Part shown: positions 19,361 to 34,653 of the stretch, piece after piece
Numbering within the stretch: position 1 is the stretch's first letter
Layout of the letters: each line of letters begins with the position of its first letter
Assembly (NCBI GenBank): GCA_017501105.1
Contig: JAFVXO010000023.1
Span: 1 to 42,279 of the forward strand
Direction: 5' to 3'
Source: Clostridia bacterium
GTDB lineage: Bacteria; Bacillota; Clostridia; RGIG7378
Length of the DNA: 42,279 nt
Position numbers and translations under genes: made by a program
Notes under the pieces: model-generated
What the model saw: the letters and a program-made list of their open reading frames with translations, nothing else
What the model was told of the DNA's origin: nothing
Databases searched by the model: none

Positions 19361-20743
19361 TCATTCCGCAGACTCAAGGGCTGAAATTGCCTCTACAATA
19401 GGCGCTAATGTGGTTCTGTAGAAGAGTAGTCCCGTATTGAATCCATCGTCGTAGAGCAGATATTGTGCCCCCTGTTCGTCGATGCTCTTAAAGCTCAGTT
19501 CCCTCTGGGTGCCGTCCTTGTGTTTATACGTGATAGTCAAGTAATCCCTTGACTCAACGGACAGCAGGTAAATCTCGTCTGCCTCTACCCACACGCCGCT
19601 GGTATACAGGTCCACAATCTGTGCGTACTCCACGGGCTGGCCATTTAGGGCATACTGATATTCTCCCTCCACAGCAGTGATGGTTATAATGTAGTTCTTG
19701 TCTCCCAGTTTGTATTCGAAGCTGTCCAGTTCCACCAATGGTGCGAAATACGCCACTGTAGCCACCAGTTCGAATGTGCTGATATCCAAAAATCCAAGGT
19801 CGTATTGGCCGACGGTGAACACATCATCCTCACCCTTGTAACAACCGAACAAATACCCTGTACCGGAGACCTCTCCCTGAGCCAACAGCAGTATCTGTGG
19901 CTCCTGTCCGTACCCCTGCACATAGAGCTCGTACTTGGGCTTGTCCAAGCCATATTTGGTCAAGTCTTCGCAGTCCGTCTCAATCACAGTTGTATACTGC
20001 AAGTTGACCAGATCGATCAGCAATTTGTCCTCGATGGTGGTCTGTTCTGCCTGAGCAGTAACAGGAGCAATCATAATCCAGCTCTTTTCTCCTCGGTTCT
20101 CCCTCCTGAGATGCCAGATTAGTTCGCCTTCTCTGACAAATGCTGCCTCCTGCACCAGGGCCTTCTGGTTTACAAACAAATAGTCCGAAGCCAGTTCCTC
20201 CACGGAGAACATCTCGATATCCTCCATAATGCCTGCATCCACAATGTACACGTGCTGGCCATTATCTGCAGTAGCATAGTATCCACTGCCTGTAGGTGTG
20301 CTGTCCCCAAGCAAAAACTCTACCACACCCTCTGCTGTGCCGTATTTAATCCGGGCTGTGGGGGAGTCAAATCCATATACAGATATATCGCTGTCAGGAT
20401 TCTCCATTATAGATGTGCCCTGAATCTTGAGGATAGCATTGCAGTACTTGTATGCGTAGAAGGGATACGCCTCAAAATCCGTGGGATGCTCCATCTCCCA
20501 TCTAAAATCCAGAGTAGCATCCTGGGAATACGTAAAAACGTAGGTGTTTGAGCTGTTGATTATTGTAATCTGAGCCAGATCCTCCTCACCGTAGGAGACA
20601 ATAGTCAGGTCGACTACATCCTGCGTACCATCCGGAGTCTCATCGCTATATATATCGAAGACGTGGAACAGCAAAAAGTAGGTGCCCACCAACGCTGCTG
20701 CCACCATCAATGTAATTAACAGAATAATATTGGATCTCTTCAT
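19361..20743 (-). CDS. DUF4340-domain protein, membrane-anchored
   Basis: This 460-residue protein has one N-terminal membrane segment (about 7-28) and a large extracytoplasmic part rich in beta strands. Two DUF4340-like repeats are recognisable, each with the pattern of a YGLDxP or YGFDSP turn followed by a short strand, then GDSTPTGSGYYA and GEVSGTGYLFGC (two matching G-TGYxxG elements). DUF4340 proteins often accompany GldF/GldG-type ABC transporters; no such genes are adjacent here. It follows the glycan-uptake operon but is separated from it by a terminator at 20842 and a possible promoter, so it is probably a separate unit. Confidence 0.8.
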   Translation of the reverse strand: MKRSNIILLITLMVAAALVGTYFLLFHVFDIYSDETPDGTQDVVDLTIVSYGEEDLAQITIINSSNTYVFTYSQDATLDFRWEMEHPTDFEAYPFYAYKYCNAILKIQGTSIMENPDSDISVYGFDSPTARIKYGTAEGVVEFLLGDSTPTGSGYYATADNGQHVYIVDAGIMEDIEMFSVEELASDYLFVNQKALVQEAAFVREGELIWHLRRENRGEKSWIMIAPVTAQAEQTTIEDKLLIDLVNLQYTTVIETDCEDLTKYGLDKPKYELYVQGYGQEPQILLLAQGEVSGTGYLFGCYKGEDDVFTVGQYDLGFLDISTFELVATVAYFAPLVELDSFEYKLGDKNYIITITAVEGEYQYALNGQPVEYAQIVDLYTSGVWVEADEIYLLSVESRDYLTITYKHKDGTQRELSFKSIDEQGAQYLLYDDGFNTGLLFYRTTLAPIVEAISALESAE

Positions 20744-20841: not shown

Positions 20842-20875
20842 AGAAAAAGACACCGCGCTCAAAAGCAACGGTGTC
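20842..20875 (-). terminator. Rho-independent terminator of the glycan-uptake operon
   Basis: GACACCG (20849-20855) pairs with CGGTGTC (20869-20875); on the minus strand it is followed by TTTTTCTTT. It is 48 bp past the last permease gene. Confidence 0.85.
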
Positions 20876-20922
20876 TAATCTTACAAGTAATTGGCTTGGC
20901 CTGGGGCCATATTCCATCTGAC

Positions 20923-21963
20923 TTAGCCAACAATACCGGATCTCTCAACAGATTCTACGAAGAACCTCTGAGTGAATGTATACAGTATAAACAGAGGTGC
21001 AATTACCAAAATACTGCCGATGTTGTTGATCTGGGAAGCAAGAGCGTTTGGAATGTTGCTCTGCTCCAGCGCAGACTTAAATGCCATCCAGTATGACTGA
21101 GCCAGTGAGTTCAGCACCTTGGACATAACCTTGATGTTCTCAAGGAATACTCCGGAGTAGTATGTATCAGTCCACTGCCAAACGAATGCGAACAGGAAGA
21201 TTGATACCAGAATGGATGTTGCGGAGGGCAACATAACCTGTACGAAGGTTCTGAGGCTTCCTGCGCCATCTACGTATGCAGCCTCTTCCAACTCCTTGGG
21301 GAGGTTACGGAAGTTCTGTCTGATCATGTAGACGTACAATCCGTTCTTGTAGCCCTGAGCTGTAAGACCAATCAGTGCAAAGGGAATTGCGCTGTCCAAC
21401 AGGTTAACTCTGGTGCGGAACAAATAGTTGACAATTCCGAAGAAGTCGAAGTTCTGCATGTGCAGAGAGTAGGTCAGCTGAATGGTCTGAGGCGGTACAA
21501 CCAGGCAAAGGATAACCAATCCAAACACCAGGTTCTTGCCGGGGAACTTGAACCTTGCAAATCCGTATCCAACCAGGGTACATGCAACGGTCTGGGTAAC
21601 GGCTGCCAGCAGAGATGTCCATACTGTGTTGATAATGATGTTGTTATCCATAGTCATTACCTGATCCTTAAGTACCAGGTCCCATATACTCTTCAATGTT
21701 TCCAAAGAGAAGTGTCTGGGGATATAAATAACTGTTGTGTCATAAAGGTCTGCCTGTGATCTGATTGCAACAGAGAACTTTACAAACAGAGGGTACAGGA
21801 TGATGAAGCAGATACCGAATACGATAACAAAGAATACAATGTTAAATCCGACCTTACCCAGCTTCTTCTTCATCTTGGCCTTCTGGCGTATCCTATATTC
21901 CGTAGGAGTAAGGACTTCGTGAGTTACAGGATCAATGTACTTGCTTTTTACTTCTGTAGACAT
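20923..21963 (-). CDS. Carbohydrate ABC transporter permease (MalG/UgpE type), second pair
   Basis: This 346-residue inner-membrane permease has six predicted helices after a cytoplasmic N-terminus of about 40 residues. The cytoplasmic EAA loop that docks the ATPase is present: EEAAYVDGAGSLRTFVQVMLP (about 226-246). It follows the 492-residue permease by 17 bp and closes the operon. With that partner it should form one translocation channel; the partner-specific binding protein and ATPase are not adjacent. Confidence 0.9.
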   Translation of the reverse strand: MSTEVKSKYIDPVTHEVLTPTEYRIRQKAKMKKKLGKVGFNIVFFVIVFGICFIILYPLFVKFSVAIRSQADLYDTTVIYIPRHFSLETLKSIWDLVLKDQVMTMDNNIIINTVWTSLLAAVTQTVACTLVGYGFARFKFPGKNLVFGLVILCLVVPPQTIQLTYSLHMQNFDFFGIVNYLFRTRVNLLDSAIPFALIGLTAQGYKNGLYVYMIRQNFRNLPKELEEAAYVDGAGSLRTFVQVMLPSATSILVSIFLFAFVWQWTDTYYSGVFLENIKVMSKVLNSLAQSYWMAFKSALEQSNIPNALASQINNIGSILVIAPLFILYTFTQRFFVESVERSGIVG

Positions 21964-21980
21964 AATCTCTTCTCCTTTCC

Positions 21981-23459
21981 TTATCTCTCATCGTAGTAGA
22001 ATACGAACCTGTTAACAATAGCAACAACTACAGCCATAATCAGTGCAATGCACAGGAAGTATATCCAGGACATGGCTGAACCCAATCCGTAGTCCATCTG
22101 AACGAAGCTGACGTCGTAGATGTAATCCAGAATTGAGCTGTAGGAGCTGTACTGATCTCCAATCTTAGCAGCGGATGTAAAGCAGTCTACAACGGTGTAT
22201 ACAATGTTAACAACGAAGTAGGGGCTGACCATGGGAAGTGTAATCTTCCAGAAATCCTCCCAACCTGTGGCACCCTCAATACTGGAGGCCTCATACAGGG
22301 ATCTGGGTACTGACTGCAGAGCTGCCAGGAATACCAGAATCTGTACGCCCGATGCAGAAATGATGGCATACAGGTTGTTAACAACGGACATAACTGCAGT
22401 TACGATCTTCTCCGGAATGTTCAGAGCCGTGAGCATAGTCTGCAGCTCAAAGGCCTGCATTCCTGTGGATCCACTGGAGCTGACCTGACTCTGGAAACTA
22501 GCCTGCATTGTGGACATCAGAACGTCGGATGTCTCAATTGCCAGAATAACACCGGAGGTCAAAATAACCGGCATGAAGAATACGGCACGTACAAAGCCTC
22601 TGCCCTTGAAGGCTCTGTTGAGCAGTACTGCAGCAAAGAAGCTGAAGATAACTACCAGAGGCAGGGTAGTGCACAGGTTTCCGATAGATGTCAACAGGTA
22701 TGTGGGGTAGTCTACGTTAACAAGCAGTGCTCTATAGTAGTTAGCGGGGACAAAGATAGTGCCTGTTGCGCTCTCGTACCATCCTGCGGGGTTAACAGTG
22801 TAACCGCCAGTTCCGTGAACATCTACCAAGCTGAAGCTGAATACCAGGGACTTAATAGCAGGTGTCAGGAAGAACAACAGGAATCCTACGATGAAAGGCA
22901 TCAGGAACATATATCCTGTAATGGCTCTCTTCTGCAGCAGCGTGGTCTGAACCTCGTTGATGGGGCTGAAGATGTTTGCCAGAACAGTAATTGCAAACTG
23001 CAATACCAAAACGCCCAACATTGTAAACAATACTGCTGTGTAGCTGAACTCAGGCCATGATGTGAAGCTGTACTGAGAGTCAGCTGCAATAGCTGCAATT
23101 CTCATTGCTAGGCCGTTGTTCATCTCTACTATAAACAGTCCGGTTGCCAAGGCGCCAAGACCTGAAGCAATAGCGCCAATTCTGAGTCCGTACTTGTTCT
23201 TAACGGACAATGCAACTGCAGAGATAATCATGCATGCCACAACCAAAAGCATAATGTCCATAGTCGCGGTCTGCTGTGTCTCTGCGAGAACATCAAGTGA
23301 TGCTGAGAAATCAATGCCGGAAATCAAATTCCAACCATTGTACTTTGTGAATACTTGGCCACCGTTTGAAACAACCACCAGTGGGAAGAACATGCACACA
23401 AATGCAACGATCGAGCAGATTTTGACCAGTAAAGAATACGGTAATTTTTTAAAGTTCAT
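21981..23459 (-). CDS. Carbohydrate ABC transporter permease (MalF/UgpA type) with N-terminal membrane extension
   Basis: The 492-residue protein is longer than a usual MalF/UgpA-like permease (about 300). Residues 1-165 form an extra four-helix membrane domain, followed by the permease domain (about 175-490) with MFLMPFIVGFLLFFLTPAI and the EAA loop EASSIEGATGWEDFWKITLPM (about 394-414). A serine/glutamine-rich insertion (MQASFQSQVSSSGSTGMQ, near residue 320) lies in a loop. It sits between the DUF5696 gene and its MalG-type partner. Confidence 0.88.
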   Translation of the reverse strand: MNFKKLPYSLLVKICSIVAFVCMFFPLVVVSNGGQVFTKYNGWNLISGIDFSASLDVLAETQQTATMDIMLLVVACMIISAVALSVKNKYGLRIGAIASGLGALATGLFIVEMNNGLAMRIAAIAADSQYSFTSWPEFSYTAVLFTMLGVLVLQFAITVLANIFSPINEVQTTLLQKRAITGYMFLMPFIVGFLLFFLTPAIKSLVFSFSLVDVHGTGGYTVNPAGWYESATGTIFVPANYYRALLVNVDYPTYLLTSIGNLCTTLPLVVIFSFFAAVLLNRAFKGRGFVRAVFFMPVILTSGVILAIETSDVLMSTMQASFQSQVSSSGSTGMQAFELQTMLTALNIPEKIVTAVMSVVNNLYAIISASGVQILVFLAALQSVPRSLYEASSIEGATGWEDFWKITLPMVSPYFVVNIVYTVVDCFTSAAKIGDQYSSYSSILDYIYDVSFVQMDYGLGSAMSWIYFLCIALIMAVVVAIVNRFVFYYDER

Positions 23460-23478
23460 AATTCACCTCTCCCACTGT

Positions 23479-26064
23479 TTACTTGATCACAAGATAGTCC
23501 TGAGCTCCAACTGTGTATGCTCCGTACTGGAATGCATCCTTGTTGTAGTTAACGACAATCTTGGTTCCGTTTTCGTAAGTTGTACAGAAAACATTGTCTG
23601 CGAGAATCTCGTGGTTGCTAATGGTTACTGTCTGCAGATCCTTGAGAACGCTGTTGATCTCTGCGTACTCCTCGGCAATCTTGCTTACCCATCCCTCGTA
23701 GTTTACGGAGTACAGGAAGTTGAAGTCTGTCTTGGAAACGATGGAGTTCTCAACATAGATCAAGGTTGTGCTCAGTGAAGCACCGGTCTCGATAGTCTTG
23801 AGAATGTTTCTGGTGTAGTTTGCGGACAGGTTAATGTCAGCGCCAGTGTAGTCAACATATCCATGGACAACAATCTGGTAGAAGGGTACGGATACGTCTG
23901 TGCTGTTGAACTCATTGCTTGTCAGTGAGGAGTTAAGAATAACGTCTGCACTGCCAAGGGTGTACTCATTACCTGTTAAGGTCATAACCTTGTAGTTCTC
24001 AGCCATCTTGGCAAACAACTGGGTGTAGAGGTCTACGGACATTGTCCTGTCGTAGGTCTTCTTAATGTTGAAGTCGGAGTTAACATCCTTGCCCAATGTT
24101 CTGGCGCTGATGCCTCCGATGTTTCCATAACCATCGAGAATTGAAACGTATTTGTTTACGTACTTCTCGACGGATGTGGGCTTGACAATGAACTTCTTGA
24201 ACAGCTTATTGTGCTGGAATGTTGCGATATCCAGGTCATAAGCCGGCTTAGTTGTTCTGTCAAGGAATCTGATGCTATCTCTATATGTAGAGTATCCATC
24301 AAACAGTCTGTCCTTGTATGCATACTCAAAGGATGCATCCAGGAACAGGGTTGCATTTACTGTGTTGAGATAATCTGCAAATGCCATCAGGTCCTTCTTG
24401 CCGCCCAGAGTCTTCTCAACCTTAATGTTGTTGGTTACATAGTGGTTGTAACCGCCGTTCATCCAGCCGATGTAGCGGACGTCCAGGTTGAGGATACCGT
24501 CGTCAAGGAGCTTATCTGTGATGATCTCTGCCTGCTCGAAGGTGGTCAGAGGCTCGCGAACTGTTACGGGCAGTCCGAATACAGTCTTTACCCTGTCAAT
24601 TGCGCCTACGTAGGTAACGTAGAGCTCGATGTTCTCATCATAGTCTGTCTTGTTAAGCATGTTGTTGTCCAACAGGTAGTTCCTGTAGGTCTTAGCCATG
24701 CCTGCGTAGGTTGCATCGTCGCCGGACAGGAAGCTGAAGTTCAGCTTGCAGTTTGTCTGAGCGATTGTCTCCTGATATACGTTTCTGGAACTGTTTCCAT
24801 CCAAGCTGGACAAGTTCAGTGCATTATACTGCAACAGATAGAATGTGGAGTATACGGAGTTGTAGCTATATCTGTAGCTGGCAACCTCAGCAGTAATCTT
24901 GGCCAATGCTGCGCCCTCCTCGATAATAGAGAGGAATGCCTTGTCGCCTTCCTTAATGCCGTATACAGGCATTGTAATCTGGTCGTAGGACTGGAATGTC
25001 TCCTTGATGTTTGTGGACTTATCAAGACCATAAACATTGTTCATGTATGTAGGAGCAACCATATTGCCATTGTTCAGGTAAATGAGTGCGCCGGATGCAT
25101 CCGGAACAAACATGTAGCCATCCTCCTCAGTCTCTGCATATGCAGCTCCGAAGAAAGGAGCAAGAGACAGGGAGTAGATGGGGAAGTTCTCATTGTACTG
25201 AATGTCCTTGGCCTTGCAGTCGATGATAAAGTTGTCGCCATCGATGATGTAGTCCACTGTAACAATGAAGTAGGGAGTCTTGCTCTCTGTATCGCCTGTA
25301 ATGGTTACATCAAGCTGGTTATCCAGAGCCTTCTGCTCCTCTGTATACTCCAGGTAGGAGAAGATTACCTCTACCTCGTCCTTGATGTAGTCCTGCAGGT
25401 TGTTACGCAGGATGTACAAATTCTGCTCGGCCAGTGTGGGGAACTGTGCCAGATCCTCTTCTGTGGCGGTGTCTGTGGTAGCAGAACGATATCGCCTCTT
25501 AAGAGTCTTTACAGCCTCACTGTAGTCCTCGCCCATTTCCTCCAGACGACTGATATAGTTGTTGAAATCAGTCTCTGTCATAACAGAGGGCATGAGCCAC
25601 TCCTTCTGGAATGTACCGAGTGTATAAACAGCTCTGATACCGTTCTCGATGGAGTAGAACTTAGTAGCCTCGTTGTACTCACAGGAGTACATGGTCTTGG
25701 ATGTTGCGCTATCGAAGTAAACCACCAACAAGGGGGACTTCTGTGTAGCTCTGTTAATGTAGGACTTGGCGGTTACTGCATCTGTATCCAATGTTGCAGG
25801 GAACAGATAGTAGTAATTTCCTGTTGCCTTGTCCAGCACTGCCATATTGGAATCGTCCTGTTTAACGAACAATGCCAAATTGCTGTTCTCAGATACTCCC
25901 TCAAATCCGTCGAGAGTTGTGGACAGCTGGGTAGCGACAAATTCGTCGAGTTCAACCTCTGCATCGTTGCCTTCTGGAGCTGCACTAGCAAATACAGTCG
26001 CATAGGAGGACAACAACATTCCGACAACAAGCAGTAAGCTGATTAAAGATTTGAATAATTTCAT
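23479..26064 (-). CDS. Secreted DUF5696 protein, possible glycosidase
   Basis: The 861-residue protein has a signal peptide ending near VFASAAP (about residue 28). Residues 30-500 are a large beta-rich region. Residues about 500-800 look like a glycoside-hydrolase TIM barrel: LDVRYIGWMNGGYNH, LGGKKDLMAFADYL, NATLFLDASFEYAY and later PFYQIVVHGYVDYTGADINLS, where barrel glycosidases have comparable strand-end motifs. The last 60 residues form a small beta domain (NGTKIVVNYNKDAF). Family membership is from memory (DUF5696 genes accompany such permeases in Clostridia and Paenibacillus); the glycosidase idea is my inference. AAAGGA precedes the ATG. Confidence 0.75.
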   Translation of the reverse strand: MKLFKSLISLLLVVGMLLSSYATVFASAAPEGNDAEVELDEFVATQLSTTLDGFEGVSENSNLALFVKQDDSNMAVLDKATGNYYYLFPATLDTDAVTAKSYINRATQKSPLLVVYFDSATSKTMYSCEYNEATKFYSIENGIRAVYTLGTFQKEWLMPSVMTETDFNNYISRLEEMGEDYSEAVKTLKRRYRSATTDTATEEDLAQFPTLAEQNLYILRNNLQDYIKDEVEVIFSYLEYTEEQKALDNQLDVTITGDTESKTPYFIVTVDYIIDGDNFIIDCKAKDIQYNENFPIYSLSLAPFFGAAYAETEEDGYMFVPDASGALIYLNNGNMVAPTYMNNVYGLDKSTNIKETFQSYDQITMPVYGIKEGDKAFLSIIEEGAALAKITAEVASYRYSYNSVYSTFYLLQYNALNLSSLDGNSSRNVYQETIAQTNCKLNFSFLSGDDATYAGMAKTYRNYLLDNNMLNKTDYDENIELYVTYVGAIDRVKTVFGLPVTVREPLTTFEQAEIITDKLLDDGILNLDVRYIGWMNGGYNHYVTNNIKVEKTLGGKKDLMAFADYLNTVNATLFLDASFEYAYKDRLFDGYSTYRDSIRFLDRTTKPAYDLDIATFQHNKLFKKFIVKPTSVEKYVNKYVSILDGYGNIGGISARTLGKDVNSDFNIKKTYDRTMSVDLYTQLFAKMAENYKVMTLTGNEYTLGSADVILNSSLTSNEFNSTDVSVPFYQIVVHGYVDYTGADINLSANYTRNILKTIETGASLSTTLIYVENSIVSKTDFNFLYSVNYEGWVSKIAEEYAEINSVLKDLQTVTISNHEILADNVFCTTYENGTKIVVNYNKDAFQYGAYTVGAQDYLVIK

Positions 26065-26094
26065 GTTTTCTTTCCTTTCTCAAAACCGCTTGTA

Positions 26095-28521
26095 TTACCT
26101 AAATGAAAGCTCACGATAGATAACGTATGCGAAGCCCCATACCTGCTGCAAAATACTGAAGAACAGTACGCCGATAAATACGATAAGTACTACGGCAAAC
26201 AGAATTACCAGGATGACCAGCATCGTCTTACCAAATGAGTACTGGTGAGTAATCATTGTACCAACAACAATCAGCAAGCCAGCCCATACGAGACCGAATA
26301 CCACGAAGAATGTGTGCATTGCGCCCTCTTCCAGGGTCAGACAGTAGCTGAGGAGTACGTTGGGAATGTACAGTACGGGGATGGGCAACAAGGAGTAGCA
26401 TGATGCCATGAATATCTGCTTCATGTTTCCTTCGCCGTCCAACAGTGTAGTTGTACACCAGTTAGCTATTACCCACAGGGCCAAGGGGCCCAAAACTGCC
26501 AGGAACTCAATCCATACGTTAACCTTAGTTACATCGTGGGGATTGAATGTGAATGCAGTAAGCTGCTTCTTGAGAATCAGTGAGAAGATCGTAAGAGCAA
26601 CAATTGAAATTGCAATCCAAGGATTTCCTCTGTTCTCCAACTTAAGCTCGTTGAATCCCTTGACGGGGTTGAGCATGTTGCGGAAAGCGAACTTGATCTT
26701 TTCGCTCAGGCACTGAGGATCCTTGGGAGGCTTGCCCTCCGGTCCATATTTCTTGAGAATCATTCTCTTGCGAATAGCCTTGAGAACAATCAGAGCAACT
26801 GCAAGGACGATAAGGCATGTCATAACTGTGCCGAATGCATCATCGATCAGCTCGCTTCTCCTCTGCTTCCATGCGTTGGAGTAGTTGGTCTTCTTGTCGC
26901 CGAGTTTGAAGTACTTCATGGCCTCGTCGTAGTTCTTGTTCATGTATTCAACACGACCTACGCCGATGTAAGCAAGCTGGAAGTTAGCATTGTGATAGTC
27001 GATAATCTCCTGCCACAGCTTGGCTGCATCTTCCCATTTTCCTTCGTCCTGCAGGGCGAGAGCCTCAAGGATATATCCACCATAAGTTGTAATCTGGAAC
27101 ATTGAAACATAACCGGTGGTCTGGTCCAGAACCATCATGTCAGTGCCAATGTACTCGATAGCAACAGGCTTCTTAAATGTTCCTGCTCTGGATCCAATAC
27201 CGCCGAAGATATACAGCAGGTTGCCGTCAGCATCGTATGTGAAAACACGGCCTCTGGTGGAGTCCAGAATGGAATAGATACCCTGATTTACGCCATTTTC
27301 CAGCAGGGCTACGTCAACGATCTTGGATACGCCCTTCTGTTCTGTGGCATAGTAATCAATTGTTACGTCTCCACCAGGTGCATACCAGGATGTTCTGTAG
27401 AGAACGTCGTTACCCAAGGGATTCAGTCTCTTAACAGAGGCATAACGATCGTCGTCTGTACCCTGCTGAATGTGAGCCTGGAACTCATACTCGGAAACGG
27501 ATGAAGATGTAACATAAATGAATGACTTGTCGTCAATTGCAATGGAACTGTACTCAGAGGGTGTGAATGTAGCCTGTCTGGCTCTCTGCTCTCTGGTCAT
27601 GAACCATCTCTTAACCACCTCGAACCAAGCAACGCGAACCTTGGCTCTGCCGAAGAATGCAGTGAAGTTGCCCTCAGAGTCAAACTTAAGCAAACCGGAG
27701 GTTACGTTCTTGGCTGCAACGTAGAGTCTGCCGCCCTCGTCAACAACCAGTGTCAAGGGGTAGTAGACGAAGCCCGCATCGAATAGGTCGGATTCGGGAG
27801 CGCCCAACAATCTCTTGACTTCGTAGGTCTCTGAGTCAAACTGGACGATTCTGCTGTTGTTTGTGTCGCAGACGTAGAATGTTCCGTCATTGTCAACATA
27901 GAGTCCCTGGGGCTCGCAGAACTTGTATGTAACGCCCTCGTATGTGTACTCGGTAATAGACTTTTCGAGTTTCCATGCATCGGGGTTGTGGGGCTGGTAG
28001 GAGAAGATCAACAGACGACCCTTAGGGGCTGTGTCGATAACGTCCTCTGTACCAACATCTGTTGTAACGTCTGTGGTGACATCGGTTGTAACGTCACCGG
28101 TTACCTCGCCGGTAACTTCCTCTGTGGTCTCACCGGCAGCTCCCTCAGTCTCTTCAACAGTAGCAACGCCCTCATCACCTGTGGAAACATCCTCAGTTAC
28201 ATCTGTAGTAGGCTCGCCAGTAACTTCCTCTGTGGACTCAGAGGGAGCAACCCACTTGGAGTCCAGATAGTAAATCAGGTTGTTCTCCTGGTCGCAGAAG
28301 ATAGCAACGGGATATACCGGTGCTGATCCTACATTCTCTATCTTGGAGATATCGATAACCGATGAAATCTCGTAGGAAGGAGGAGCGTTCAGGATAGTCT
28401 TAGTAGAACTATAGGTGTAGTTAGCGAAGGAGGGTGTCTCTGCAAATGCTGTGTAGCAGTTGCTAGCCAACATTACCACAAGCAGGAGTAATGCCGCTAT
28501 TTTAGTAAGCTTGTTCTTCAT
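26095..28521 (-). CDS. NHL-repeat/TPR/YIP1-domain membrane protein
   Basis: The 808-residue protein has a signal peptide (1-27), a low-complexity Thr/Val/Asp/Glu linker (about 92-165), an extracellular NHL-type beta-propeller (about 180-490) with EPQGLYVDNDGTFYVCDTNNSRIVQFD and similar blades, a TPR-like helical stretch (about 490-550), a membrane helix near 563, and a C-terminal YIP1 domain of five or so helices (about 620-800). It therefore joins an outside propeller to a membrane module. Its place between the two permease pairs suggests a scaffold or sensor for the uptake system; no biochemical role is known to me. Confidence 0.8.
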   Translation of the reverse strand: MKNKLTKIAALLLLVVMLASNCYTAFAETPSFANYTYSSTKTILNAPPSYEISSVIDISKIENVGSAPVYPVAIFCDQENNLIYYLDSKWVAPSESTEEVTGEPTTDVTEDVSTGDEGVATVEETEGAAGETTEEVTGEVTGDVTTDVTTDVTTDVGTEDVIDTAPKGRLLIFSYQPHNPDAWKLEKSITEYTYEGVTYKFCEPQGLYVDNDGTFYVCDTNNSRIVQFDSETYEVKRLLGAPESDLFDAGFVYYPLTLVVDEGGRLYVAAKNVTSGLLKFDSEGNFTAFFGRAKVRVAWFEVVKRWFMTREQRARQATFTPSEYSSIAIDDKSFIYVTSSSVSEYEFQAHIQQGTDDDRYASVKRLNPLGNDVLYRTSWYAPGGDVTIDYYATEQKGVSKIVDVALLENGVNQGIYSILDSTRGRVFTYDADGNLLYIFGGIGSRAGTFKKPVAIEYIGTDMMVLDQTTGYVSMFQITTYGGYILEALALQDEGKWEDAAKLWQEIIDYHNANFQLAYIGVGRVEYMNKNYDEAMKYFKLGDKKTNYSNAWKQRRSELIDDAFGTVMTCLIVLAVALIVLKAIRKRMILKKYGPEGKPPKDPQCLSEKIKFAFRNMLNPVKGFNELKLENRGNPWIAISIVALTIFSLILKKQLTAFTFNPHDVTKVNVWIEFLAVLGPLALWVIANWCTTTLLDGEGNMKQIFMASCYSLLPIPVLYIPNVLLSYCLTLEEGAMHTFFVVFGLVWAGLLIVVGTMITHQYSFGKTMLVILVILFAVVLIVFIGVLFFSILQQVWGFAYVIYRELSFR
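28031..28250 (-). repeat. Low-complexity coding repeat in the YIP1 protein gene
   Basis: Short in-frame units encoding TTDV (three in tandem) and EEVTGE/EVTGD recur here, giving 12-nt near-repeats at the DNA level. The product is an acidic, threonine-rich linker between the N-terminal strand region and the propeller. Repeat number is likely to vary between strains. Confidence 0.7.
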
Positions 28522-28532
28522 GCACTACCTCC

Positions 28533-29444
28533 TTACTTAATACCTGAAGAGGCCATTGTCTCAACGACGTTGCTCTCTGTCAGCATGAACATAACAATAG
28601 GAACGATCATGATGAATACGGCAACAGCGGAACCGGCACCCTGTCTGGCTACACCACCGGCCAGAATCTGGTTCAGGGCGTAGGGCAGAGTCTTGAGCTG
28701 CTCACTGAATACGTAAACACCACCTGTTGTATTCCAGAGAGACTGGAAGGAGAAAATGATCAGCGTCAGCCAAGCAGGCTTAACGTTGGGCATTGCGATG
28801 CTCCAGTAAACTCTGAATTCGTTTGCTCCGTCAATACGTGCAGATTCGCAAAGAGCTGTTGGAAGACCTTCCATGAACTGCTTCATAAGGAAGAGGCCCA
28901 TGGTGCTTGCGAATGCAGGTACAATCAAAGCAAGATATGTGTCCAACCAGCCGAGACCTGACAAAATCAGGTAGTTGGGAATGTATGTAACCGTTGCAGG
29001 GAACATCAGAGCCCAAATAACAGCTGTGAACAGGAAGTTCTTACCGGGGAACTCGTGCTTGGCCAAGGCAAATGCTGCCATAGATGCCAACAGCAGGTGA
29101 CCCAGTGTACCGCATGCTGTGATGAATGCGGTGTTGAAAATGTATCTCGAGAAGGGTACCCAGGACTCGGACATAATGATGAACAAGTCAGAGAAGTTGT
29201 CCAAAGTAGGGTTACGTGCAAAGAATCTCGGAGGGAATGCGAACAGCTCATCCATGGGCTTTACGGAGTTGCTGATAGCATATACAAAGGGCAGTAACAT
29301 GAAGATACCAACTACAATCAGCATTACGATAATGGCTACGTCGCCACCTACTGATCTGTTTGGCTTTCTCCTATGTACGAATTTGCCTCCGATCTTTGTT
29401 ACTTTCTCTTCTTTAATTTTAGGTTCTTTAGCTTTTCTTGCCAT
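28533..29444 (-). CDS. Carbohydrate ABC transporter permease (MalG/UgpE type), first pair
   Basis: A 303-residue permease with six predicted helices after a basic N-terminus, and the EAA loop ESARIDGANEFRVYWSIAMP (about 199-218). The ATG at 29444 is chosen over a TTG two codons upstream; it follows the stop of the preceding permease by 2 nt, so the two are coupled. It pairs with the permease at 29447-30394. Confidence 0.92.
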   Translation of the reverse strand: MARKAKEPKIKEEKVTKIGGKFVHRRKPNRSVGGDVAIIVMLIVVGIFMLLPFVYAISNSVKPMDELFAFPPRFFARNPTLDNFSDLFIIMSESWVPFSRYIFNTAFITACGTLGHLLLASMAAFALAKHEFPGKNFLFTAVIWALMFPATVTYIPNYLILSGLGWLDTYLALIVPAFASTMGLFLMKQFMEGLPTALCESARIDGANEFRVYWSIAMPNVKPAWLTLIIFSFQSLWNTTGGVYVFSEQLKTLPYALNQILAGGVARQGAGSAVAVFIMIVPIVMFMLTESNVVETMASSGIK

Positions 29445-29446
29445 TA

Positions 29447-30394
29447 TCAAGTACCTACTTTCTTCAGAAGATTTTGTATCAGTCTGTTAAGACCGAGACA
29501 TACGGCGAATAGGAGAACTGCGATTGCCGAAGCGTAGCCCATTTCGAATCGGACATCGCCGTAGTCCTGAAGGTGGTTAACGATAGTATGAACTGCGTAG
29601 TCAGTGCTGGGGAATCCGCACATAGCTGTCATGATGTCAGCAGCTCCAAAGGAGGATGTGATAGACATAACAGCTGCGAACAGCAACTGAGGCTTCATGG
29701 AGGGCAGTGTGATATACCACAGCTCCTGCCATCTGTTGCTGATTCCGTCAACATAACCTGCCTCGTAGAGTTCCTTGTCGATACCCTGCAAACCTGCTAC
29801 GTGAGACAGGAAGCCGGCGCCAAGAGAGCTCCACAGAGCAACTACGATACATACAAACATCATGTACTTTGTATCCGTTGTCCACTGGATAGCGGTATTG
29901 GTAATGCCCCAGTTCATCAATACACCGTTAATCCATCCGTAGGAGTCGCCGGAGAACATAATGCTCCAGACCATGTAAACCTGACCGGAAATTGTAGGTG
30001 CATAGAATATCAAAATCATGATGGCACGAATCTTGGGAGGAAGCTCGTTAATGAACCATGCAAAAACGAATGCTGCCAGGTAGCCCAAGGGGCCAGTGAT
30101 AATAGCAAAAATGAATGTATTCTGAATTGCGAGGATGAATACGTCATCGTGCAGGAACAGGTTGAGGTAGTTGTCCCAACCTATAAACTGCGGGGCCTCC
30201 AAGATATTATAGTAGGTGAAACTATAATATACGGAGATAATAACGGGTACGATTGTGAACATCACAAACAGGACGTAATAGGGCAACAGGAACAGGTATG
30301 ATGCCTTGTTGTCCTTAATACGACCCCAGAGAGTCCATTTCTTCTCGTAATCCTTGAGTTCACGCTTTTTCTTTTCTACAACTGCTGTACTCAT
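29447..30394 (-). CDS. Carbohydrate ABC transporter permease (MalF/UgpA type), first pair
   Basis: A 315-residue permease: charged N-terminus, first helix YLFLLPYYVLFVMFTIVPVI (33-52), the family motif GWDNYLNLF, and the EAA loop YEAGYVDGISNRWQELWYIT (about 205-224). It follows the solute-binding protein gene by 27 bp and is the usual partner order for the CUT1 class of sugar importers. Confidence 0.92.
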   Translation of the reverse strand: MSTAVVEKKKRELKDYEKKWTLWGRIKDNKASYLFLLPYYVLFVMFTIVPVIISVYYSFTYYNILEAPQFIGWDNYLNLFLHDDVFILAIQNTFIFAIITGPLGYLAAFVFAWFINELPPKIRAIMILIFYAPTISGQVYMVWSIMFSGDSYGWINGVLMNWGITNTAIQWTTDTKYMMFVCIVVALWSSLGAGFLSHVAGLQGIDKELYEAGYVDGISNRWQELWYITLPSMKPQLLFAAVMSITSSFGAADIMTAMCGFPSTDYAVHTIVNHLQDYGDVRFEMGYASAIAVLLFAVCLGLNRLIQNLLKKVGT

Positions 30395-30421
30395 TGTTTA
30401 CTCCTTTCTGAAATGTCTCTC

Positions 30422-33400
30422 TTAGTTTCCGACCTTACCTGCTGCAATGTCATCTGCAGTAGGAAGACCGAACTCTTGTCTCTTGTTTGTAATCTCGTCG
30501 TTGATAGTACGCAGGTACTCAATCAATGTCTCACGAGGATCAACCTTGTTGTAAACGCACTTTCTGAATGCATTGGACAGGTGGCGGCTGGTGAAGTAGC
30601 TGCCGGGAAGCTGAGGAATACCCTTAGCCCAGCTCCACTGCTCAAGAATCATAGCGTGGTCCTTGGTTGTCCAGGAAATCTGCTCGAAGGCCTCCAGGTT
30701 AGCTGTAGCGTATCTGGCAGCAGATCCCATAACGGACTCCAGGTTCTTGCCGAAGCTGACCTGTGTAGCTGCAGATGTCCACCACTTCATGAACTCCCAA
30801 GATGCATCGGGGTCCTCTGTTGCAGACAACATCATACATGCATTACCTGTAGCTGCGACACTTCTATCGATGTAGGTGTTGCCGCTGGCATCAACGCGCT
30901 CGGTGCCGGGAACCAGTGCCCAACTCCACTTACCCCTGATTTCGGGAGCGAAAACAGACAGTGTGTTGTACAAGCTGTAATCGGAAATACCGATAGGCAT
31001 CTCGCCGATTCTGAAACGGTTGAGGAAGTCGTAGGTTACCTCGCAGCCGTAGTCTGTATAGAACAGACACAGCAGCTCAAATGCCTCAATAGCCTCATCT
31101 CTATCCATAGCTGTTGCTGTTCCGTCATCAGTGTACAGCTGTCCGCCGTGCTGATACAGGAACATAGAGTAGATTGACAATGTGGTAGCAACGTCAGCCA
31201 TTGATGCAAGACCAAAGGCCATGTTGTGCTCAGCCAGGTCAGGCAGGATGGTAATAACATCGTCCCATGTCTCGGGAACCTGCAGTCCAAGCTCATCCAT
31301 AACGTCTGTTCTGTAGAACAGCATGGGGAATGTCTCTGTCTCAGGTAAGCCGTATACGCCTACAGCGCCGTTGGCACCCTCAAACTTGAGAGCCTCAAGA
31401 GCACTTGCGTTGAATCTCTTGGCGATCTCGTCGTAGTCCTCAAACTGAGTCAAATCATATGCTGCGCTACGGATAGCATAGTTAACAGGCTCTGTGCACC
31501 ATACCTGAACAACTACGTCAGGTCCGATACCTGCAACAACGGCGGGAAGCAAGTTACCACCGGTAACCAACTGCAGGTTAACGTAGATAGGTGCTCCAGC
31601 TGCCTCTGTAGCAGGAACAAATGTGTCATCAATCAGTGCCTTGAGGATGTTGGACTGGTCACGACCTGTTGTAATCCATACAGTAATGTTGGAAGAGCCA
31701 GATTCCTCGTCGTATACGTTACCAATGGAGCTATAGTCATTGAAGAATGAGTTAAGGAAAGAGCTGAACTCATGCCAAATACTCTGCCATATGGTATCGT
31801 TTGCACGAGGGATCTCGGTCAGCTGATCCTGAGATGTTACATAGAAGCAATCCATCTCCAGAGGAGTAGCGCTCATGTTGATCATCCATGTGGACAGTGA
31901 ACCGATGTTGGTCTTGAGCTGGTCCAGAGACTTGGGAATATTCTCAGGCTTTGCAACCAGCTTGCGCAACTGCTTGGACAGAGTCTCCAGAGTACCGACC
32001 TTGTCTCCCTTAGCTCCTGTAAGAGCCAACAGATCCTCGATCATCTTGTCCAACTCGTTTGCTGTATTCTCGAAAATGAGGATAACGCCGGGCAATCTCT
32101 GATCCAACTGGTAGTCTGCATATGTATCAGGAGTAGTACCTGTGATCATAAGGATCTTACGGTAGCAGACGTTGAGCAGGTTAACCAGCTCGTCAGCCGT
32201 GGTAATCAGGTCTGTCATGTCTCCAATGGAGGCCTCCAGTCTGATAGTATGGGTACCTGCTGTCAGATAGAAATAGTAGGGGTTGCCCTGTCCGTCGCCG
32301 ATGGTCTTGTTGACCCAGCCGTTCTCGTAGGGGAAGTGGAGATTCTCGCACTCCGCAAAGGGAACCTCTCCGTCAATCTTGAGAATACGTGTGGAATAAA
32401 TACCTCTGGCTACGTTCTGCCTGTACTTGAGGGTAAGGCAATACATACCGTCTGCAGGAACCTCAATCTCGTACTCAATCCACTGACCGGAGGTGTTCCA
32501 TGTCTCACCACCGACGGTGTTGTACTTGATCTCCTTTACGCTGTAGGGGGTAACTGTAGCAGAAGATCTATTGTTCTGTGCAATCAATGTAGTAGAGGAT
32601 GTGTGAGTGGTAAGCTCAGCCTCGTACTTCTTGAAATAGCTGTCTATAACGTTGATGTTGGCATACTTGCTCAGATAATCCTGATAAGGCTGAACAGCAA
32701 CCTTGTTTGCAACGGTAATAACACCAATAACCAGGGGCTCCTTAGTAGCCTCAAGGGTAATTGTGTTCTCTCCCGCCTCAAGATAGAAGCTGTAGGGCTC
32801 TACATAGTAACCGTTGGGGTCACTGATGTATGTGCCGTTCCACAGCGGATCCTCTATGAGTCCGGGACGGATATCGTTGTTTCTGTTGTCAACAGCAAAT
32901 CCTGTGTCGGGGTTACGGTTAGGAGATGTAACCTCCTTGTTCTGCCATGTGCGGACGAACAAAGCCGTACCTGCATCAAAGAAAGGCAGTTCACCGTTAA
33001 TCAAGAACCTGCGTTCTGCATCGGATCCCTTGCCTTCAGTAGGACAGAACTCGACAAATACCTGGTAAAGTCCAGATGTTGGGACATTGAAGCTGTATGT
33101 AACACTGCTGCTCTCCTCGGTCTTGACTGCCTGGCCGCCCTTGTAGCCGTTGTAACCGTCTACAATGGTGTATCCGCTAGACAATTCAGTAACCAAGTTG
33201 GAGGGTGTTACCTTAATGACATCAGTAGGCCTAAAGTCGTCCTTAACGTGCTCGATGTAGTATGCGTATGAATCCATATCTATATATGCAGGATCCTGCA
33301 GTATAGAATCGATGGACATACCCGAACCGCTAAAGTCGTCAGAGCCTACGTCTTCTGTGACAACTTCATCGCCCGCTGACTCATCTGCATTGTCCTCACC

Positions 33401-33487
33401 GTCTGCTGCAAAAGTAATAGCTACTACAGCAACGGCCACAACGGCCAATGTCAGAAGAACAGCAATGAATTTGGTCCATTTTGACAT
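30422..33487 (-). CDS. Extracellular solute-binding protein with two carbohydrate-binding-like modules
   Basis: At 1021 residues this is more than twice the size of a usual sugar-binding protein. It has an N-terminal membrane helix (about 5-27) with no lipobox cysteine, then an acidic linker. Two related beta-sandwich modules follow (about 100-262 and 325-425), sharing SYTF/EIEVP-x2-GxYxxxxxF, a short INGELPF/IDGEVPF turn and YSFYLEAGENTITLEA/YYFYLTAGTHTIRLEA strands. A helical spacer (about 430-560) leads to a family-1 solute-binding domain (about 590-990: LLPAVVAGIGPDVVV, GVYGLPETETFPMLFYRTD, WEFMKWWTS). First gene of the operon, behind a sigma-A promoter. No ATPase gene is nearby; a shared MsmX-like ATPase elsewhere is likely. 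Confidence 0.88.
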   Translation of the reverse strand: MSKWTKFIAVLLTLAVVAVAVVAITFAADGEDNADESAGDEVVTEDVGSDDFSGSGMSIDSILQDPAYIDMDSYAYYIEHVKDDFRPTDVIKVTPSNLVTELSSGYTIVDGYNGYKGGQAVKTEESSSVTYSFNVPTSGLYQVFVEFCPTEGKGSDAERRFLINGELPFFDAGTALFVRTWQNKEVTSPNRNPDTGFAVDNRNNDIRPGLIEDPLWNGTYISDPNGYYVEPYSFYLEAGENTITLEATKEPLVIGVITVANKVAVQPYQDYLSKYANINVIDSYFKKYEAELTTHTSSTTLIAQNNRSSATVTPYSVKEIKYNTVGGETWNTSGQWIEYEIEVPADGMYCLTLKYRQNVARGIYSTRILKIDGEVPFAECENLHFPYENGWVNKTIGDGQGNPYYFYLTAGTHTIRLEASIGDMTDLITTADELVNLLNVCYRKILMITGTTPDTYADYQLDQRLPGVILIFENTANELDKMIEDLLALTGAKGDKVGTLETLSKQLRKLVAKPENIPKSLDQLKTNIGSLSTWMINMSATPLEMDCFYVTSQDQLTEIPRANDTIWQSIWHEFSSFLNSFFNDYSSIGNVYDEESGSSNITVWITTGRDQSNILKALIDDTFVPATEAAGAPIYVNLQLVTGGNLLPAVVAGIGPDVVVQVWCTEPVNYAIRSAAYDLTQFEDYDEIAKRFNASALEALKFEGANGAVGVYGLPETETFPMLFYRTDVMDELGLQVPETWDDVITILPDLAEHNMAFGLASMADVATTLSIYSMFLYQHGGQLYTDDGTATAMDRDEAIEAFELLCLFYTDYGCEVTYDFLNRFRIGEMPIGISDYSLYNTLSVFAPEIRGKWSWALVPGTERVDASGNTYIDRSVAATGNACMMLSATEDPDASWEFMKWWTSAATQVSFGKNLESVMGSAARYATANLEAFEQISWTTKDHAMILEQWSWAKGIPQLPGSYFTSRHLSNAFRKCVYNKVDPRETLIEYLRTINDEITNKRQEFGLPTADDIAAGKVGN

Positions 33488-33633: not shown

Positions 33634-33753
33634 CAATTTAATGCAAATGAAATGTATTAAAATATACAACCAAATAATACACCGCCCCATTATACAATGT
33701 CAATAAACCAACCTCCCGTTTTTGCCGTTTTTTTGAGCAAAAAGTCAACAATT

Positions 33754-33782
33754 TTGACAGTAATATTTACCACATATATAAT
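33754..33782 (+). promoter_or_regulatory. Consensus sigma-A promoter for the M23 peptidase gene
   Basis: TTGACA (33754-33759), exactly 17 bp, TATAAT (33777-33782): a perfect match to consensus in both boxes and spacing. Confidence 0.9.
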
Positions 33783-33801
33783 GCTGTCTTGGGAGGATTT
33801 T

Positions 33802-34653
33802 ATGCCAATGAAAAAGCATCTCAGGATATATGCCATTTTAGGCATTGTTATTGTTGGGCTCATGGTAGCCTTGATTTGTATGGGTGTACATTTTAACAAA
33901 TATTGCCGGGAATTGGAGAGTTCCATAGCCGCCCTGGAGGGAGATAAGCAGCAGACTGCCCAGCAGGTAGACCTGTTGAACCGGGAACTGGCTAACTTCA
34001 GGGATTCTATGGATAGGTTTGAGCTGGACATGGCCCTGCTTAACGAGGATTCATCTATTTACAGCTATTCCCAGGTGGCGCTTTCCAACGGTCTGACCGG
34101 ATCCGAGAACACAACGGACGCCTCCGACATTTCTACAGTTTGGGCAGCCCTCAATGTTATCAAATGGGCATATTCCGACAACTCCCTCACCAACCGATTT
34201 GTGGCACAGAGCGATTTGAATTCGGTTATCAACGGAGTCAACAACATCGTCAGCGCCCTGGAGCGTTATCCCGACCTGTGGCCCACCGACGGCGGATGGG
34301 TTACATCCTATTTTGGTTACCGCTCTGATCCCTTCACCTCCGAGGTAAAGTACCACAGTGGTGTGGACATCGCAGTAAACTACGGCACCAACGTATACGC
34401 CTCCGGTGCAGGCACAGTATATGCCACAGGCTACGACGAGGCCGGTTACGGCTACTACGTGATGGTAGACCACGGCAATGGCTATGTGTCCCTATACGGA
34501 CACCTGTCCAAGATAAACGTGTCCACAGGGCAGAAGGTCTCCAAGGGTCAAGTCATTGCCCTGTCCGGAAACAGTGGCCGCAGCACAGGACCCCATCTCC
34601 ACGCAGAGTTGCGACAGAACGGAGTGAGAGTGTCTCCCAAGTTCGACTACTAA
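33802..34653 (+). CDS. M23-family (LytM-like) peptidoglycan endopeptidase, membrane-anchored
   Basis: The 283-residue protein has an N-terminal membrane helix (about 9-29), a coiled-coil stretch (about 33-75), a helical spacer and a C-terminal LytM/M23 domain (about 155-283). The zinc ligands are present: HSGVD (about 184-188) and HLH in TGPHLHAEL (about 262-270), with VMVDHGNGYVSLYGHL between. Active enzymes of this type cut peptide cross-bridges. I choose the ATG at 33802, 5 nt after GGGAGG; the frame is open further upstream, to 33697, but that segment contains the promoter. Alternative ATG at 33808. A terminator follows. Confidence 0.92.
   Translation: MPMKKHLRIYAILGIVIVGLMVALICMGVHFNKYCRELESSIAALEGDKQQTAQQVDLLNRELANFRDSMDRFELDMALLNEDSSIYSYSQVALSNGLTGSENTTDASDISTVWAALNVIKWAYSDNSLTNRFVAQSDLNSVINGVNNIVSALERYPDLWPTDGGWVTSYFGYRSDPFTSEVKYHSGVDIAVNYGTNVYASGAGTVYATGYDEAGYGYYVMVDHGNGYVSLYGHLSKINVSTGQKVSKGQVIALSGNSGRSTGPHLHAELRQNGVRVSPKFDY

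Follow-up and report, generated by a model that had tools for sequence, protein, structure and literature searches.

In Caldicellulosiruptor bescii, many CUT1 systems share one MsmK, the deletion of which impairs growth on di-, oligo- and polysaccharides (PMC8579813, available portion). Four signature residues are proposed for multitask ATPases of the MsmX type in the accessible part of another report (PMC7658222). Here we analyze a 42,279-nt contig (JAFVXO010000023.1, assembly GCA_017501105.1; denoted as the window) from the 1.49 Mb genome of a Clostridia bacterium, in which seven minus-strand genes (20923-33487) encode two MalF/MalG-type permease pairs, a giant solute-binding protein (SBP), an NHL/TPR/Yip1 protein and a DUF5696 protein. 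This double CUT1-type import block is real and widely conserved, and its gene order is common to bacteria across a phylum, not an accident of one genome. The seven genes, from first to last, are:

30422-33487, minus strand: giant SBP, 1021 aa, with a predicted signal or anchor, carbohydrate-binding module family 35 (CBM35)-like jelly rolls, a helical stretch and an SBP_bac_1 domain (residues 633-909)
29447-30394, minus strand: PA1, MalF-type permease of pair 1, EAA loop EAGYVDG
28533-29450, minus strand: PB1, MalG-type permease of pair 1, EAA loop ESARIDG; the ATG start is probably at 29444
26095-28521, minus strand: NHL beta-propeller/TPR protein with a Yip1 membrane domain, 808 aa, membrane segments present
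23479-26064, minus strand: DUF5696 protein, 861 aa, predicted distant relative of glycoside hydrolase (GH) family 129 and GH129-like proteins, lacking an invariant acidic residue
21981-23459, minus strand: PA2, MalF-type permease of pair 2, EAA loop EASSIEG; additional membrane segments at the N-terminus
20923-21963, minus strand: PB2, MalG-type permease of pair 2, EAA loop EAAYVDG

The seven open reading frames (ORFs) were confirmed, with gaps of -4 to 30 nt, and a Pfam scan recovered the gene families named in a preliminary description of the window: SBP_bac_1 in the 1021-aa protein (E = 4e-15), BPD_transp_1 in four proteins, DUF5696 in the 861-aa protein (E = 1.9e-178), and NHL, TPR (below the cut-off) and Yip1 (E = 9.5e-15) in the 808-aa protein. 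The EAA loops are kept in all four permeases (36 to 38 sequences each). In a tree of 147 permease sequences, built with no outgroup, each of the four types is monophyletic with support of 0.91 to 1.0, and these separate groups indicate that the pairs are old and distinct. A recent tandem duplication of the permease pair was rejected on the same tree.

A DUF5696 profile was searched over the phylum (398 genomes) and the class (391 genomes), exceeding the family cut-off in 39 and 95 genomes, respectively. From these hits we chose, non-randomly, 40 neighborhoods, to which the nearest relative was added (L004, the same locus as L071), and surveyed gene order with profiles of all seven block proteins. 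All seven genes stand in the window's order in 35 of 41 loci, or 34 of the 40 distinct loci; together with the tree groups and the EAA loops, this bears out the earlier proposal that two distinct permease pairs are kept as a unit. The exceptions are L082, in which PB1 is relocated to the end of the block; L100, L105 and L103, in which the two halves are swapped (L103 also carries an extra SBP); L088, which has no SBP and meets a contig end there; and L097, which has the second half alone. Roughly half of the loci encode the NHL/TPR part and the Yip1 part in two separate genes. The nearest relative is a Clostridia metagenome-assembled genome (MAG) from water-buffalo caecum with a 77% identical DUF5696 protein. 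A contig scan of genomes yielded one relative, and scans of viral contigs found no relatives of the block. Fifteen further stretches (L125-L139) were fetched, partly to seek exceptions: L131, L132, L133 and L139 contain the full block, and L125, L127, L134, L135 and L136 contain only YIP-DUF5696-PA2-PB2 with flanks in view (in L135 the contig ends soon after PB2). L128, L129, L130, L137 and L138 are interrupted by contig ends, and L126 is flank only.

The two halves of the block also occur together across the class. Using thresholds of E up to 1e-60 for both proteins, the giant SBP was found in 78 of the 391 genomes, a strong full-length DUF5696 in 79, and both in 77, so that about a fifth of the sampled class genomes carry the block. 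Among the 80 genomes with either large protein, 77 have both, two have DUF5696 alone (the MAGs G448 and G460, 73-75% completeness) and one has the SBP alone (G489); in G489 the block meets a contig end and DUF5696 is partly present (L130). Wherever the giant SBP was found in the genomes searched, the half with DUF5696 and pair 2 was there too.

The block contains no ATPase gene, as the preliminary description had noted, and the search it suggested for an unlinked MsmX-type ATPase identified a single MalK-type ATPase with an OB domain, on contig C55. This protein carries D77, R104, E110 and K154, all four of the residues proposed for multitask ATPases. An OB_MalK ATPase is present in 39 of 39 block-bearing genomes, 35 of which have exactly one copy; in just two, its gene is no more than 6 kb away from the block. 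Of the eight BPD_transp_1 places in the window's genome, four belong to the window, two to C19, and one each to C67 and C79. The window's four permeases are the only CUT1-like ones among them; the C19 pair adjoins an ATPase, and the protein beside this pair is presumably PotD.

We favor, at about even confidence, a conserved double importer of the CUT1 type, joined to an extracellular platform that captures glycans. Importer 1 would consist of the giant CBM-fused SBP and PA1/PB1, and importer 2 of PA2/PB2, the latter most likely fed by a small SBP, the gene of which adjoins the block in most relatives and lies elsewhere in this genome (C9, C45). The NHL/TPR/Yip1 and DUF5696 proteins appear to travel with importer 2, the former as a probable membrane-anchored scaffold and the latter as a probable non-catalytic, glycosidase-derived glycan-binding protein; together they would keep long chains close to both channels, which the single unlinked MsmX-type ATPase on C55 may power. 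The physical assembly, the pairing of the small SBP with pair 2 and a glycan as substrate are our inferences.

The binding proteins bear on how the two channels would be supplied. Profile searches match the front half of this giant SBP to CBM35-bearing cycloisomaltooligosaccharide glucanotransferases, and Pfam detects CBM_35 in 4, Golvesin_C in 9, GH115_C in 3 and CBM_6 in 1 of 27 members. A structure model of this part had a mean pLDDT of 39.0 and returned CBM35 entries in Foldseek (2w47, TM 0.77 by target length); given its low confidence, it was used only as support for the profile matches, by which the front half is CBM35-like. Of the 41 loci, 27 have a member of a second, small SBP family next to the block; unlinked members occur in the window's own genome on C9 (248 bits) and C45 (90 bits), compared with 25 bits for a PotD-like control. 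These unlinked SBPs likely use the window's channels, as there are no other CUT1-like permeases in the genome. The preliminary description had considered that one binding protein serves two channels, the channels being alternatives for one capture protein. The giant SBP is the only binding protein in the window's operon and was always accompanied by the second half, as this reading would have it; the linked and unlinked small SBPs speak against it, as do G063 and G041, which have pair 2 with a small SBP and no giant SBP nearby, and we regard it as the least probable of the alternatives considered here.

Near the C9 gene (L123:3127-4551), which encodes a lipoprotein-like small SBP beside a polysaccharide deacetylase and a histidine kinase, two genes are, we assume from their sequences, glgC/glgD. 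In L096, six consecutive open frames of the small-SBP family lie downstream of PB2. An SBP_bac_8 protein on C116 (L122:3590-5449), in a frame of 619 aa, carries a long charged stretch at its N-terminus; in the 9 kb fetched around its gene, no permease was recognized.

The DUF5696 profile matches structures of the GH129-like DagB, an alpha-1,3-(3,6-anhydro)-D-galactosidase (5opq, 8rzg and 8rzk, E = 6e-15 to 7e-15), and of NagBb (5wzn, E = 2.4e-5), and in profile-profile comparison it matches four GH129 proteins found in the class (probability 99.1), so that a sequence relation to GH129 and GH129-like proteins is found over the barrel. These matches would suit an active glycosidase that trims captured glycan before import, a reading that we consider unlikely given the acidic residues: no acidic column is invariant among 40 DUF5696 members (highest 90 to 91%), and the columns matching the GH129 invariants D517 and E561 (L111 numbering) hold an acidic residue in 20% and 30% of members, respectively, so that the conserved catalytic carboxylates of a GH129-type glycosidase are not found. 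DagB requires four acidic residues, according to the available text of PMC5698469. The alignment is weak around the catalytic strands and the region of these four residues lies outside its confident part, so that a different active site is possible in DUF5696. The suggestion that DUF5696 processes glycan is therefore weakened by the lack of an invariant acid, while the GH129-type relation stands; from the alignments, a non-catalytic binding or scaffold protein is more likely. The term "DUF5696" is absent from the 5.39 million open papers searched.

Two variant forms of DUF5696 were also observed. A shorter subfamily of about 565-610 aa covers only profile positions 185-612 (G443, G559, G564 and G709 among others); the giant SBP was not found in these genomes in the class search, and the subfamily may represent a distinct branch, perhaps one with catalytic activity. 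In longer proteins of about 960-1010 aa, from G464, G533, G576, G597, G723, G511, G618 and G636, an insertion splits the profile match.

Several observations weigh against the double importer with a shared platform, the first of them being the loci that carry half of it. G063 (three loci), G041, G136 and G166 have the half block without pair 1 or the giant SBP in the fetched DNA, usually accompanied by a small binding protein, which indicates that the two importers are not necessarily parts of a single machine. The preliminary description had named pairs found apart with different SBPs as evidence against its proposal, and this is partly borne out by these four genomes. Operons with several importers exist, and two ordinary importers that are merely adjacent, with no shared machine, would account for a second half that stands alone. 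Adjacency by itself fits poorly with the same order across a phylum, with the near-perfect co-occurrence, and with a giant SBP that is never without DUF5696, and we consider this explanation improbable. The evolutionary distances of the two halves (module 1 versus module 2) are correlated over 33 loci (r = 0.91, reached by 0 of 2000 permutations), which, uncorrected for the species tree, shows joint inheritance rather than contact. An AlphaFold2 model of DUF5696, from the window and L004 sequences, had a mean pLDDT of 28.7 and was not used.

The genomic context of the block gives further points against a platform for nutrient glycans. The window genes scanned beside the block include no GH, the feature expected of a polysaccharide utilization locus, and the block is flanked there by genes for housekeeping and envelope functions, among them MurT/GatD, a flippase-like protein, an M23 peptidase and MreB. 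Five other loci with scanned flanks have SecA, a transglutaminase-like protein (two loci), ribonucleotide reductase or Omp85. An envelope role is thus possible, in which the block serves salvage or maintenance of the cell's own envelope glycan and not nutrient import; the window's neighbors and the several loci without an evident glycan-degrading gene are consistent with it. We hold this role to have a low probability, as at least eight loci have a nearby GH gene: GH3 near L076, L090 and L100, GH9 near L077, GH26 and GH130 near L079, GH26 near L098, GH35 near L099 and GH106 near L097. Tallies of 53 and 26 chosen flanking genes, pooled over loci, also contain GH10, GH18, GH30, fucosidase and pectate lyase, and LacI or AraC regulators are among the flanking genes of relatives. 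The mixed neighbors across loci indicate that the block is not tied to one sugar.

The boundaries of the block in the window are marked by three features:

33674-33703, minus strand: promoter-like site TTGACA-N18-TATTAT, 11/12 consensus matches, conserved in the nearest relative L004
33614-33638, minus strand: palindrome AATTGTGACCGGTTTGGTCATAATT, 25 nt, candidate operator between the promoter-like site and the first gene
20848-20876, minus strand: predicted intrinsic terminator closing the unit, a hairpin followed by a T run (-18.9 kcal/mol, z = -4.6)

The ORFs, the promoter-like site and the terminator agree with the earlier claim of seven same-direction genes between one promoter region and one terminator. 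A second promoter-like match, TTGACT-N17-TAGAAT at 33589-33561, lies closer to the first gene. The region holds 22 promoter-like sites compared with 22.8 expected by chance, and as the overall count is no higher than chance, the evidence for the promoter is its position and conservation. The palindrome is near-perfect in L004 as AATTGTGAC...GTCACAATT; a genome-wide regulon search with up to three mismatches returned only the window copy. The terminator found at the equivalent place in L004 differs in sequence (-20.3, z = -6.8), and an Rfam scan of the window gave no match. The seven-gene unit is well supported, and this layout suggests that the seven genes are co-transcribed.

Just past the terminator lies a gene for a DUF4340 protein (19361-20743, minus strand). 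It was rejected as an eighth gene and placed outside the unit because the terminator stands between them (gap of 179 nt) and because it was seen at the block only in the genus relative L004/L071. On the other side, a divergent M23 peptidase gene (33697-34653, plus strand) contains a 12/12 sigma-70 match (33754-33782) inside its annotated ORF, suggesting that the true M23 start may lie further downstream.

The larger surface machine raised in the preliminary description is supported as a possibility. We propose tentatively, and with clearly less confidence than the double importer itself, a Bacillota surface machine in which a scaffold, the NHL/TPR/Yip1 protein, and a dead glycosidase, DUF5696, hold captured polysaccharide and pass it on to two different ABC channels with a common ATPase as their motor. 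In function, it would be a Gram-positive equivalent of the Bacteroidota surface complexes for glycan uptake. The giant SBP with pair 1 would be an addition reliant on the scaffold half, as it was never seen without that half, which can occur alone. Such a machine would account for the delivery of long glycans to the membrane in many Gram-positive fibre degraders, provide a role for DUF5696 and bacterial Yip1 proteins, and place two distinct importer cores on one motor. As the only CUT1-like permeases found in this 1.49 Mb genome lie in the block, complex sugars may enter the cell mainly through it.

We recognized no description of the block in the open-licence PMC literature searched. In common with Gram-positive polysaccharide utilization loci, an ABC transporter stands near GH genes in at least eight relatives; in contrast to them, the window has no linked GH or regulator, and the block recurs beside unrelated gene sets. 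Compared with NagBb (GH129) and Zobellia DagB (PMC5698469, available text), DUF5696 aligns to the N-terminal beta-sandwich, the early TIM barrel and the C-terminal domain, and differs in lacking an invariant acid and in its membrane-linked transport context, with no carrageenan or mucin genes seen adjacent. No double-pair block with Yip1 or DUF5696 is described for the CUT1 set of C. bescii in the available portion of PMC8579813, and "Yip1" and "NHL" were not found in its main text. The block has the hallmarks of CUT1 systems, namely MalF/MalG-like permeases with an EAA loop, a family 1 SBP and an unlinked MalK/MsmX-type ATPase. AraNPQ and GanSPQ of Bacillus subtilis, as presented in the accessible part of PMC7658222, likewise combine an SBP and a MalF/MalG-like pair with an unlinked MsmX-like ATPase bearing the four proposed signature residues; to this plan the block adds a second ancient permease pair, a 1021-aa CBM-fused SBP, an NHL/TPR/Yip1 protein and DUF5696.

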